The notes below the pieces were generated by a model. It did no database searches, had not been told where the DNA came from, and was given only the letters and a program-made list of their open reading frames with translations. This document shows positions 14,049-21,203 of a stretch of 64,000 nucleotides of DNA, one piece after another; position 1 is the stretch's first letter; each line of letters starts with the position of its first letter. The position numbers and the translations under genes were made by a program. The DNA comes from Xanthobacter flavus (GTDB taxonomy: Bacteria > Pseudomonadota > Alphaproteobacteria > Rhizobiales > Xanthobacteraceae): positions 3,741,001-3,805,000 of the forward strand of contig NZ_JAGGML010000001.1 of assembly GCF_017875275.1 (NCBI RefSeq). Reading direction: 5' to 3'.

Positions 14049-17000
14049 ATGTCGATCCTCGCGAGCCTGCATCACGTCACGAGCTACACCTACGATCACC
14101 CGGTCTCCATGGGGCCGCAGGTCATACGGCTGCGGCCGGCGCCGCACAGCCGCACCGACATCCCGGCCTATTCGCTGAAGGTCTCGCCGGCCGACCACTT
14201 CATCAACTGGCAGCAGGATCCGTTCGGCAACTGGCTGGCCCGCATCGTGTTTCCGGAGCCGGTGTCGGAGTTCAAGGTCGAGGTGGACCTCCTCGCCAAG
14301 CTTGACATCGTCAACCCCTTCGACTTCTTCGTCGAGGAATATGCCGAGAACTTCCCCTTCGAGTACGCGCCGGCGCTGAAGGCCGAGCTGGCGCCGTATC
14401 TGGAGCTGGAGGATGAAGGCGCGCTGTTCGCCGACTATCTCGCCTCCGTTCCGCGCGAGAAGACCCGTATCGTCGACTTCCTGGTCCATCTCAACCAGCG
14501 CCTGCAGGGCGAGGTCGGCTACGTCATCCGCATGGAGCCGGGCGTGCAGACGCCCGACGAGACGCTGAGCCGTAAGCTCGGCTCCTGCCGCGACACCGGC
14601 TGGCTGCTGGTGCAGATCCTGCGCCACCTCGGCCTCGCCGCCCGCTTCGTCTCCGGATATCTCATCCAGCTGAAGCCGGACGTGGCCGCCCTCGACGGCC
14701 CCTCGGGCACGGACGTGGACTTCACCGACCTGCATGCCTGGTGCGAGGTCTTCGTGCCCGGCGCCGGCTGGATCGGCCTCGACCCGACCTCGGGCCTCCT
14801 GTGCGGCGAGGGCCACATCCCGCTCGCGGCCACGCCGCACTACAGCTCCGCCGCGCCCATCACGGGCTATGTGAACGAGAAGGCCGAGGTCGAGTTCGGC
14901 TTTGACATGCAGGTGGTCCGCGTCGCCGAGGCGCCGCGCGTGACGCTGCCCTTCTCCGACGAGACCTGGGCCGCGCTCGACGAGCTCGGGCACAAGGTGG
15001 ACGAGGACCTCAAGGCCGGCGACGTGCGCCTGACCATGGGCGGCGAGCCCACCTTCGTCTCCATCGACGACTACCAGTCGCCGGAGTGGAACACCGAGGC
15101 GCTCGGCCCGCACAAGCGCGAGCGCGCCGACGACCTGATCCGCCGCCTGCGCCGCCGCTTCGAGACCGAGGGCGTGCTGCACTACGGCCAGGGCAAGTGG
15201 TACCCCGGCGAAACACTGCCGCGCTGGTCCTTCGACCTGTTCTGGCGCAAGGACGGCCAGCCCATCTGGCAGCGCGAGGACCTGATCGCCGACGAGAAGG
15301 TGAACTACGGCGTGACCCCGGCCGATGCCGAGCGCTTCTGCAAGGCGGTGGCCGAGAAGCTCGCCGTGGGCAGCCAGTTCGTCCAGCAGGCGTTCGAGGA
15401 CAACATCTATTACATGTGGAAGGAGCAGAACCTTCCCGAGAACATCGCCCCCGGCGATCCGCGCATGGCGGACGAGGTGCAGCGGCGCATGCTGGCGCGC
15501 ACCTTCAACCAGGGCCTCGGCACCGCCACCGGCTCGGTGCTGCCGCTGCGCCGGGTGTGGACCCCGACCGGCCCGGCCTGGCGCTCGGAGGAATGGACCT
15601 ACCGTCGCCAGTTCCTGTTCCTGATCCCCGGCGAGAGCCCCATGGGCTACCGCCTGCCGCTGGAATCTCTGCAGTATCTGGCGCCCACGCGCTACCCCTA
15701 CATCGTCGAGGCCGACCCTTTCGAGCCGCGCGACCCGCTGCCCGACGCCGCCGATTTCGCCGCCCGCTACACCGCGGGGCAGGGCGGTGCCGGCACGGGC
15801 GCCGATGGCCATGACGCCGGCGCGCCCGGCGGCCCGGGCGGGATGCCGCGCCATTCCATCGCCCCGCGCACCGAGGCCTACGGCGTCGGCGAGCGGGCGC
15901 AGGAGCTGGCGCGCGAGTATATCGCCAAGTACGACACCCAGGTCTTCACCGCCGACACCCGCACCGCGCTCTGCGTCGAGCCACGCAACGGCCGCCTGTG
16001 CGTGTTCCTGCCGCCGGTGGAAATCCTCGAGGACTATCTCGACCTCATCGCCGCCCTTGAGCAGGTGGCCATCGAGTTGAACACGCCCATCCACATGGAG
16101 GGCTATCCGCCGCCCTTCGATTACCGCCTCAACCTCATCCGTATCGCGCCCGATCCGGGCGTGCTGGAGGTGAACGTCCATCCGTCCGATAGCTGGGCCG
16201 GCTGCGTGGAGATCACCCGCATCCTCTATGAGGAGGCGCGGCTCGCGCGCCTCGGCACCGAGAAGTTCATGGTGGATGGGCGCCACACCGGCACCGGGGG
16301 CGGCAACCATGTGGTTGTGGGCGGCTCCACCCCCGCCGACAGCCCCTTCCTGCGCCGGCCGGACGTGCTGAAGAGCCTGCTGCTCTACTGGCAGCGGCAT
16401 CCCTGCCTGTCCTATTTCTTCTCCGGCCTGTTCATCGGCCCCACCTCCCAGCATCCGCGGGTGGACGAGGCGCGGCACGACAGCCTTTATGAGCTGGAGA
16501 TCGCCTTCTCCAAGTTCCCGCCGCCCGGCAAGGGCGAGCCGCCGGCCCCGTGGCTGGTGGACCGGCTGCTGCGCAATCTCCTGGTGGACGTCACCGGCAA
16601 CACCCACCGCACCGAAATCTCCATCGACAAGCTCTATTCGCCGGACGGCCCCACCGGCCGTCTGGGCCTGGTGGAATTCCGCTGCTTCGAGATGCCGCCG
16701 GACTGGCGCATGAGCCTCGCCCAGCAGCTGCTGCTGCGGGCTCTCATCGCGCGGCTGTGGAACAAGCCGGTGCATGGCCACTGCACCCGCTGGGGCACCA
16801 TCCTCAACGACCGCTTCATGCTGCCGCATTATGTCTGGCAGGACTTCCTCGACGTGGTGGAAGACCTCTCGGACGCCGGCTACCAGATCGATCCCGAGTG
16901 GTTCCGCGCCCAGTTCGAGTTCCGCTTCCCCGCGTTCGGCAAGGTCCAGCAGGCGGGCGTGGACATCGAGGTTCGCCAGGCGCTGGAATGCTGGCACGTG

Positions 17001-17474
17001 CTCGGCGAGGAAGGCGTCACCGGTGGCACGGCGCGTTATGTGGACTCCTCCGTGGAGCGCCTGCAGGTGAAGGTGGAGGGCTTCAACCCCTCGCGTCACA
17101 TCCTCACTTGCAACGGCCGCAAGGTGCCGCTGGCCCCCACCGGCCGCAACGGCACCTATGTGGCGGGCGTGCGCTACAAGGCGTGGCAGCCGTGGTCGGG
17201 CCTGCACCCGACCATCCCGGTGCATTCGCCGCTCACCTTCGACCTTGTGGACACCTGGAGCGAGCGCTCCCGGGGCGGCTGCGTCTATTACGTCTCCCAT
17301 CCGGGCGGACGGAACTACGACACCTTCCCCGTGAACTCCTACGAGGCGGAGGCGCGGCGCCTCGCCCGCTTCCAGACCTTCGGCCACAGCCCCGGCACCC
17401 TCGACGTGGTGCTGGAAACGGCGCCGGACGAGTTCCCGACCACCCTCGACCTGCGGCGCCCTGCCGGCGCCTGA
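14049..17474 (+). CDS. transglutaminase-like / DUF2126 fusion protein
   Basis: A 1141-residue protein. The bacterial transglutaminase N-terminal beta domain is followed by a papain-fold core with a complete triad: Cys180 (GSCRDTG), His229 (DLHAWCEV) and Asp245 (GLDPTSG). From about residue 310 the long DUF2126 region begins (RLTMGGEPTFVS...), ending near DEFPTTLDLRRPAG. There is no signal peptide, so it is probably cytoplasmic. Comparative-genomic work on amidoligases links this architecture to circularly permuted ATP-grasp and alpha-E proteins, as seen in the next gene, and predicts peptide-bond making and breaking. The reaction is undemonstrated here. Confidence 0.88.
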   Translation: MSILASLHHVTSYTYDHPVSMGPQVIRLRPAPHSRTDIPAYSLKVSPADHFINWQQDPFGNWLARIVFPEPVSEFKVEVDLLAKLDIVNPFDFFVEEYAENFPFEYAPALKAELAPYLELEDEGALFADYLASVPREKTRIVDFLVHLNQRLQGEVGYVIRMEPGVQTPDETLSRKLGSCRDTGWLLVQILRHLGLAARFVSGYLIQLKPDVAALDGPSGTDVDFTDLHAWCEVFVPGAGWIGLDPTSGLLCGEGHIPLAATPHYSSAAPITGYVNEKAEVEFGFDMQVVRVAEAPRVTLPFSDETWAALDELGHKVDEDLKAGDVRLTMGGEPTFVSIDDYQSPEWNTEALGPHKRERADDLIRRLRRRFETEGVLHYGQGKWYPGETLPRWSFDLFWRKDGQPIWQREDLIADEKVNYGVTPADAERFCKAVAEKLAVGSQFVQQAFEDNIYYMWKEQNLPENIAPGDPRMADEVQRRMLARTFNQGLGTATGSVLPLRRVWTPTGPAWRSEEWTYRRQFLFLIPGESPMGYRLPLESLQYLAPTRYPYIVEADPFEPRDPLPDAADFAARYTAGQGGAGTGADGHDAGAPGGPGGMPRHSIAPRTEAYGVGERAQELAREYIAKYDTQVFTADTRTALCVEPRNGRLCVFLPPVEILEDYLDLIAALEQVAIELNTPIHMEGYPPPFDYRLNLIRIAPDPGVLEVNVHPSDSWAGCVEITRILYEEARLARLGTEKFMVDGRHTGTGGGNHVVVGGSTPADSPFLRRPDVLKSLLLYWQRHPCLSYFFSGLFIGPTSQHPRVDEARHDSLYELEIAFSKFPPPGKGEPPAPWLVDRLLRNLLVDVTGNTHRTEISIDKLYSPDGPTGRLGLVEFRCFEMPPDWRMSLAQQLLLRALIARLWNKPVHGHCTRWGTILNDRFMLPHYVWQDFLDVVEDLSDAGYQIDPEWFRAQFEFRFPAFGKVQQAGVDIEVRQALECWHVLGEEGVTGGTARYVDSSVERLQVKVEGFNPSRHILTCNGRKVPLAPTGRNGTYVAGVRYKAWQPWSGLHPTIPVHSPLTFDLVDTWSERSRGGCVYYVSHPGGRNYDTFPVNSYEAEARRLARFQTFGHSPGTLDVVLETAPDEFPTTLDLRRPAGA

Positions 17475-20155: not shown

Positions 20156-20175
20156 GGCGAGCCACGCGAGCCGAA

Positions 20176-20311
20176 AGCCCGCGCGGCGCCTGAGCGAAAG
20201 CAACGTAAAACAGCCCGCGCGGCGCCTGAGCGAAAGCAACGAATACAGCCCGCGCGGCGCCTGAGCGAAAGCAACGAATACAGCCCGCGCGGCGCCTGAG
20301 CGAAAGCAACG
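20176..20311 (+). repeat. four tandem copies of a 35-bp repeat
   Basis: A 30-base unit starting AGCCCGCGCGGCGCC and ending GAGCGAAAGCAACG occurs identically at 20176-20205, 20212-20241, 20247-20276 and 20282-20311. The copies are separated by 6, 5 and 5 bases (TAAAAC, AATAC, AATAC). The array fills almost the whole gap between the ATP-grasp/alpha-E gene and the second transglutaminase gene, ending five bases before the latter's ATG. Each unit contains CCGCGCGG and GGCGCC palindromes. Confidence 0.95.
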
Positions 20312-20315
20312 CACA

Positions 20316-21203
20316 ATGCTCTACGATATTCGCCAGACCACCACTTACAGCTATCAGGTGCCGGTGCGCGTGGTACGGCAGGTGCTGCGCATGACGCCGA
20401 TGGACCGCTTCGGCCACCAGCACGTCATCGCCCACATTCTCGATGTGGACCCCGAGCCGGCCGAACTGGAGCAGGGCACCGATTTTTTCGGCAACGGGCT
20501 CACCTGGCTTACCATCGACCAGCCCCACGGCCATCTTTCCATCACCACCCGCAGCCGGGTGGACGTGACCGCGACGCCCCTGCCCGACCCCGCCGCAACC
20601 CCGCTGGTGGACGAAGTGCGCGTCGTGGCGCTGGAGGAGCCGGACCTTGGTCCCGATGCGGCGGTCCACGGCTTGTTTCCGAGCCGGGCCATTCCCATCG
20701 ACGCCGACATTACCGACTGGACGGCGACCAGCTTCCGCGGCGACCGCCCGGTGCTGGAGGCGGCGCTGGAGCTTATGCACCGCGTGCACGACGAATTCAC
20801 CTATGAGCCCGGCGCCACCATCGTCACCACCTCGCCCCACGAGGCATTCGCGGCGAAGGCGGGCGTGTGCCAGGACTTTGCGCAGGTGATGATCGCGGGG
20901 CTGCGCGGCCTCGGCCTGCCGGCGCGTTACGTCTCCGGCTATCTCCGCACCATCCCGCCCGAGGGCCAGCCCCGGCTGGAGGGGGCGGACGCCACCCACG
21001 CCTGGGCAGAGGTGTGGTGCGGGCCGGCCTTCGGCTGGATCGGGCTCGATCCCACCAACGCCATCCCGGCGGGGGACGACCATATCATCCTCGCCGTCGG
21101 CCGCGACTATGCGGATGTCTCGCCGGTGGACGGGGTGATCGTCTCGTCCGGAGACCACATCCTCGCCGTGGGCGTGGACGTGGTTCCGGTCCCGGCCCGG
21201 TGA
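20316..21203 (+). CDS. transglutaminase family protein
   Basis: A 295-residue protein with the bacterial transglutaminase N-terminal beta region (YDIRQTTTYSYQVPV) and a papain-fold core with a complete triad: Cys185 (GVCQDFAQVM), His228 (THAWAEVW) and Asp245 (GLDPTN). Probably a cytoplasmic peptidase or amidase partner of the upstream ATP-grasp ligase. Its start is preceded by the 35-bp repeat array and has only a weak ribosome-binding site, so translation may depend on coupling or on the repeats. Confidence 0.9.
   Translation: MLYDIRQTTTYSYQVPVRVVRQVLRMTPMDRFGHQHVIAHILDVDPEPAELEQGTDFFGNGLTWLTIDQPHGHLSITTRSRVDVTATPLPDPAATPLVDEVRVVALEEPDLGPDAAVHGLFPSRAIPIDADITDWTATSFRGDRPVLEAALELMHRVHDEFTYEPGATIVTTSPHEAFAAKAGVCQDFAQVMIAGLRGLGLPARYVSGYLRTIPPEGQPRLEGADATHAWAEVWCGPAFGWIGLDPTNAIPAGDDHIILAVGRDYADVSPVDGVIVSSGDHILAVGVDVVPVPAR

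Follow-up and report, generated by a model that had tools for sequence, protein, structure and literature searches.

The closest described systems to the repeat reported here are the REP/BIME elements and the GTAG/CGTC REPs associated with RAYT, which are short dispersed intergenic repeats found mainly in convergent and co-directional gaps, some of them clustered, according to the available part of the source (PMC3733652). In Bradyrhizobium, Br-REP1 and Br-REP2 lie in 3'-UTRs and between convergent genes, consist of a centre with flanking palindromes and turn over fast, again as given in the available part of their description (PMC5082802). Excerpts of two further reports describe the RIMEs, Sm-repeats and A, B and C palindromes of Sinorhizobium as intergenic structured repeats, the RIMEs being termed mosaic (PMC2573895), and the Bru-RS of Brucella as an intergenic structured repeat family (PMC2267715).

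Here we describe a tandem array found in a 64-kb window, by which we mean the whole stretch of DNA that was analysed, and the family built on its 21-bp core. Like REP/RAYT elements, the core repeat is intergenic (61 of 62 sites) and lies in convergent or co-directional gaps, with no divergent case. Unlike them, a single unit forms no stable palindrome (z +1.38, its folding being worse than that of its shuffles on average), although the hairpins found beside the core in relatives are palindromic; the 30-bp unit carries neither a GTAG nor a CGTC tag on either strand; and the repeats run head-to-tail in tandem, in one orientation. A RAYT-driven REP is ruled out by the Y1_Tnp profile, which gave 0 matches at E <= 0.001 in the source genome (control positive in 5/14). 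The core repeat shares the placement and turnover of REP-type elements but fails the tested REP/RAYT marks other than placement. It resembles Br-REP1 and Br-REP2 in being alphaproteobacterial, in its gene-end and convergent placement, in having a centre with flanking palindromes and in its fast turnover; their printed consensus, compared by eye, is dissimilar to our unit, and the available part of their description mentions no tandem arrays (PMC5082802). The likeness to the Sinorhizobium and Brucella repeats is one of description, not sequence: all are intergenic structured repeat families of Hyphomicrobiales, going by the excerpts of those reports (PMC2573895, PMC2267715). We found no description of the core-repeat family in the open-licence literature, and four 16-letter spellings of the core were absent from the part of that literature searched by text.

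Results

Four identical units precede the transglutaminase gene

The array consists of four identical 30-bp units (AGCCCGCGCGGCGCCTGAGCGAAAGCAACG) at steps of 36, 35 and 35 bp, separated by spacers of 6, 5 and 5 bp (TAAAAC, AATAC and AATAC). TRF places it at 20176-20311 with a period of 35, 3.9 copies and 98% matches. When up to 3 mismatches are allowed, the inner 25 bp of the unit occurs 4 times in the window, whereas 100 shuffles average 0.01 occurrences, so the array is beyond chance. The preliminary description had reported four identical units with a period of about 35 bp between an ATP-grasp/Alpha-E gene and a transglutaminase gene; sequence and TRF bear out the first point and Pfam domains the second (Table 1). 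It had also let the array fill the intergenic gap and end five bases before the ATG. The array does take up 136 of the 160 intergenic bases, but 20 non-repeat bases separate it from the upstream stop codon, and the distance from the last unit to the ATG is 4 bases, not five.

Table 1. Features of the array and the surrounding apparent operon (positions in the window).
Feature	Position	Strand	Basis
First gene of apparent operon: transglutaminase N-domain/core and DUF2126 amidoligase	14049..17474	+	Domain search; operon presumed from gene order and strand
Upstream gene: circularly permuted ATP-grasp type 2 (CP_ATPgrasp_2) and Alpha-E, 842 aa	17627..20155	+	Pfam PF14403, PF04168
Stop codon-to-array stretch, 20 bp; start resembles relatives' tight junctions (TGAGGCG..., GAGG ribosome site)	20156..20175	+	14 same-genus orthologues compared
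Unit 1 (21-bp core and 9-bp tail)	20176..20205	+	Sequence, TRF
Unit 2	20212..20241	+	Sequence, TRF
Unit 3	20247..20276	+	Sequence, TRF
Unit 4	20282..20311	+	Sequence, TRF
CACA between array and start codon, 4 bp; weak predicted ribosome site upstream of ATG, -3.2 kcal/mol	20312..20315	+	Sequence; pairing energy
Transglutaminase-like gene, 295 aa (Bact_transglu_N and Transglut_core); dN/dS 0.049 vs G001	20316..21203	+	PF08379, PF01841

A CRISPR is ruled out, as the preliminary description had concluded, by spacers of 5-6 bp, two of the three being identical. A structured regulatory RNA is ruled out as well: the array stretch has no Rfam match up to E 1, and its predicted folding is like that of shuffled sequence (z -0.16 for the whole array and -1.37 for two units). 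Between 20050 and 20450 neither an intrinsic terminator nor a sigma-70-type promoter was predicted (0 and 0), other promoter types lying outside the reach of that prediction.

The array belongs to a chromosome-wide repeat family

The preliminary description had proposed a whole-genome search for the unit, and this search uncovered dozens more copies, a dispersed family that the description itself had missed. The chromosome of the source genome (G000) was searched as one contig of 5,354,025 bp. A search with the array as query gave 33 matches; the inner 25-mer gave 38 with at most 3 mismatches and its reversed control 0; and the 21-bp core, AGCCCGCGCGGCGCYTGAGCG, was present in 46 exact copies against 0 for the reversed-pattern control, or 92 against 7 when up to 3 mismatches were allowed. 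The window array is one local array of a short intergenic repeat found throughout the chromosome, and is not specific to the transglutaminase gene.

Behind each core come a less conserved tail, in many cases GAARGCAACG, and then an A-rich spacer. Copies are single or in tandem, with array steps of 32-37 bp and a step of 72 at one site. The 13-bp tails are 73% identical within arrays (17 arrays, 44 pairs) and 50% identical between sites (1552 pairs), while the cores of the same unit set are 98% and 95% identical, respectively. The array-specific tails suggest local duplication and homogenisation.

Some core sites adjoin other features. At locus L108 (source genome, 1753322 onward) the tail of a core leads into a 10-bp tandem repeat (AAGCGAAGAC kind), and a second, palindromic repeat (ATCGCCCGCCTTGTGCGGGCGAT and relatives) lies downstream of several core sites (L048, L057 and L102, with variants at L065 and L101). 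At 3234509 in the source genome (L060) and at 4308993 in its nearest relative, G001 (L098), the called upstream gene terminates at a TGA in the first core, 18 bases in, so that its stop codon seems to come from the repeat.

Core sites lie mostly behind gene ends

We scored placement at the 38 sites formed by 75 cores of the source genome (up to 2 mismatches) and at 24 sites of G001, which were reached via exact or BLAST matches and are only part of the G001 total; genes were called with a custom codon-usage script, not a published gene finder. One site, inside a called gene, was dropped from the counts. The gaps hosting the remaining sites of the two genomes were convergent in 41/61 cases and co-directional in 20/61, with 0/61 divergent, whereas 13% of the non-coding bases of the fetched stretches lay in convergent and 30% in divergent gaps (binomial p 2e-22 for the former and 4e-10 for the latter, for sites that are not independent, since those of the two genomes are partly orthologous).

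The unit is faced on its 5' side by a gene end at 53 sites, in 45 of which that end is at most 41 bp away, a closeness given without a control. The 5'-side gene is the nearer one at 29 of the 41 convergent sites, or at 25 once the 13 bp of the tail are subtracted. A fixed orientation to the neighbouring gene is ruled out, 12 of the 20 co-directional sites being sense. In the window array, the distance from core end to start codon is 13 bp, matched only by the G001 counterpart; the next nearest cores stand at 21 and 28 bp.

The junction is tight, filled with units or filled with other inserts

The junction was compared in 14 same-genus genomes. It is 6-9 bp long in five of them (G003, G007, G008, G010 and G013), and G005 is also tight by reading, not by parsing; five of these six tight junctions read TGAGGCGG..ATG, in which GAGG is the ribosome site. 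Units are present in G000 (4), G001 (4) and G009 (2). Those of G001 match G000 letter for letter over all 120 unit bases, and those of G009 differ. Other inserts, of 69-180 bp and by reading with a hairpin in common, occupy the junction in G002, G004, G006 and G012, and a recognisable core is left in the inserts of G006 (4 mismatches) and G002 (read across the stop codon). The gap of G011, 66 bp long, holds no core. In a midpoint-rooted tree the array species group together as a clade (100/99), as do the hairpin-insert species (100/99), while the placing of G008 and G011 is open; because of these two, one insertion and two insertions fit the tree alike. As a separate observation, several GGATCCCCCGGACAAGCCGGGGGATGACA-like palindromes share one intergenic region past the 3' end of the transglutaminase gene of G007 (L080, about 1115-1500).

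The preliminary description had regarded the array as recent or under selection. Recency is not supported, since the same four identical units stand at the junction of G001 when dS for the transglutaminase gene is 0.364 between the two genomes. Because of this dS, the identity of the units goes beyond mere recency, and it points to constraint, repeated homogenisation or local exchange.

GAGG is kept at the upstream stop codon in G000, more than 150 bp from the ATG, and is gone in G001 and G009. The pairing energy of the ribosome site was -3.2, -3.2 and -4.9 with the array (G000, G001 and G009, respectively) and -5.6 to -8.3 in 10 of the 11 orthologues without it, the eleventh (G010) having -1.7. 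Among the ATG genes of the window in this test, 3/35 were at -3.2 or weaker, the transglutaminase gene probably among them. Predicted start accessibility was 0.54, 0.54 and 0.58 with the array and 0.53, 0.51 and 0.38 in three orthologues without it. An effect of the array on mRNA structure, which the preliminary description had put forward, is not supported, given this similarity to two of the three orthologues and the shuffle-like folding. A translational effect through displacement of the ribosome site is possible on these predicted energies. The transglutaminase gene is under purifying selection despite the distant or lost GAGG (dN/dS 0.076 against G009; for G001 see Table 1).

Relatives carry a larger hairpin element

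A search of relatives found a match in 15 of 41 genomes, and the exact core was present in 10 of 119 sampled genomes of the family and in 7 of 397 of the order, all three counts including the source genome. The strict tandem pattern with a GRARGCAACG tail has three occurrences in G009 and none in G012, G002, G004 or G006; G004 has tandem cores with other tails. Two Pannonibacter plasmids, identified as such by their records, match over 52% of the array query at 75-78% identity. On the Pannonibacter plasmid NZ_CP032313.1 (L163, 4005-4089), three cores, diverged in sequence and spaced at 32-bp steps, carry a different tail and lie between paaK and a TetR-family gene; by reading a hairpin stands before them.

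G340, a member of another family, has 59 exact cores, and all 11 of its sites examined hold a single core. Counting G019, from another genus, as well, 20 of the 21 sites hold a single core, and the other has two copies 64 bp apart. A perfect stem of at least 9 bp lies within 60 bp before the core at 8/21 of these sites (G340 6/11, G019 2/10), against 1/274 random places in the same loci, and a stem of at least 7 bp within 85 bp after it at 12/21 (G340 8/11, G019 4/10), against 60/274. In an alignment of the first hairpin, 14 of 16 pairs showed compensatory change among 13 sequences picked by eye for a visible hairpin (9 from G340, 2 from G019 and 2 from Xanthobacter). For the core with the second hairpin, also 13 sequences chosen by eye (9 from G019 and 4 from Xanthobacter), this was the case in 3 of 19 pairs, those inside the core barely varying and being uninformative. 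Fuller forms in G340 and G019 have TGATAC...GTATGA-like ends by reading. The fullest form, seen in relatives, consists of a hairpin, the 21-bp core and a second hairpin. Rfam, run on 12 sampled core loci at the gathering threshold, matched only a tRNA.

In Xanthobacter, a stem of at least 9 bp follows the core at 16/61 sites, against 96/822 control stretches, and precedes it at 6/61, a count without a control. Some Xanthobacter sites retain one hairpin or both: one G001 site (4837247) keeps both, and its orthologue in the source genome (2889141) lacks the first. The Xanthobacter tandem arrays may be amplified cores of this modular intergenic element; because strong stems are near only a minority of the Xanthobacter sites, descent from the fuller form may not extend to every array.

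Units turn over between nearest relatives

Both flanks could be located in the fetched G001 stretches for 27 of 37 sites of the source genome, and 10 sites had no counterpart in those stretches. Unit number, counted ungapped with up to 3 mismatches, was equal at 13 of the 27 and different at 14, and G001 had no core at 3; the difference at 466165 is only apparent, one base being deleted in a G000 unit, and sites 611935 and 612273 share one G001 place. At the three core-less sites, any target-site duplication of the kind left by a MITE would be indistinguishable from the unit's own start. Unit number differs between species both at these sites and, as the comparison of related genomes proposed in the preliminary description showed, at the junction, in keeping with its view that copy number can vary.

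Between the two genomes 68/747 core bases have diverged, against 76/308 in tails, 46/136 in spacers and 68/308 and 124/473 in the two flanks; for single-copy cores the figure is 15/189. Part of this contrast is built in: many G001 stretches were selected for holding the core, and an alignment may pair the wrong units of a tandem. Even with this selection bias, the low core divergence hints at a function beyond that of an inert repeat.

Discussion

We consider it likely that the array arose when the core of a modular non-coding element, dispersed between genes in Hyphomicrobiales, was amplified in tandem at this place. In this reading the element is tolerated behind gene ends, and here it would uncouple the last gene of the operon. 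That a non-coding repeat is tolerated at gene ends and amplified there is well supported. The data show the dispersal of the family, its placement, the differences in copy number between species, the tight junctions of relatives and the purifying selection on the transglutaminase gene. The element would build up where it does least harm, behind gene ends. Its copy number would shift through slippage or unequal recombination, the presumed mechanism of amplification, and the same process would make the tails array-specific. At the junction, which may have been tight ancestrally, the element would have entered and then amplified, and the array would have moved the ribosome site away from the transglutaminase start and broken the translational coupling to it, so that translation of that gene may be uncoupled or lower. 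Descent of the array from the hairpin-core-hairpin element would complete this account.

The main rival, which we hold to be unlikely, is that selection maintains the core as a functional site in DNA or RNA. A nucleoid, termination or RNA-decay factor might, for example, bind it at gene ends, and arrays would be multi-copy sites that here tune or separate transglutaminase expression. In favour of this rival, tail and flanks change 2.4-2.9 times more than the core at orthologous sites, and it suits both the placement at gene ends and the recurrence of the same 21-mer 59 times in another family (G340), single at all 11 sites examined and flanked by hairpins that vary in their letters. However, the orthologous set was picked by core similarity, which lowers the apparent divergence, and three arrays of the source genome have no core in G001. 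Steps of 32-37 bp speak against strict helical phasing, the orientation to the neighbouring gene is variable, and neither the window stretch nor the 12 sampled loci gave an Rfam match bar the tRNA.

In a more specific form, distinctly unlikely in our judgement, the core would be the recognition site of a conserved Hyphomicrobiales factor acting at gene ends, tandem amplification in Xanthobacter and on the Pannonibacter plasmids would adjust its strength, and the array would isolate the transglutaminase gene from its upstream partners. Very improbable is a copy-number switch specific to the transglutaminase gene, in which slippage would change unit number and with it mRNA structure and translation: unit number does vary across species (4, 4 and 2) and the array adjoins the ATG, but the repeat also occupies dozens of unrelated sites, its folding is not better than shuffled, and predicted start accessibility with it is like that of two of three orthologues without it.

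The Xanthobacter repeat family is now defined with orthologous filled, expanded and empty sites, which offers a test of repeat amplification and its effects. The transglutaminase junction is a natural experiment within an operon, with a tight junction, a hairpin insert or two to four tandem units across related species.
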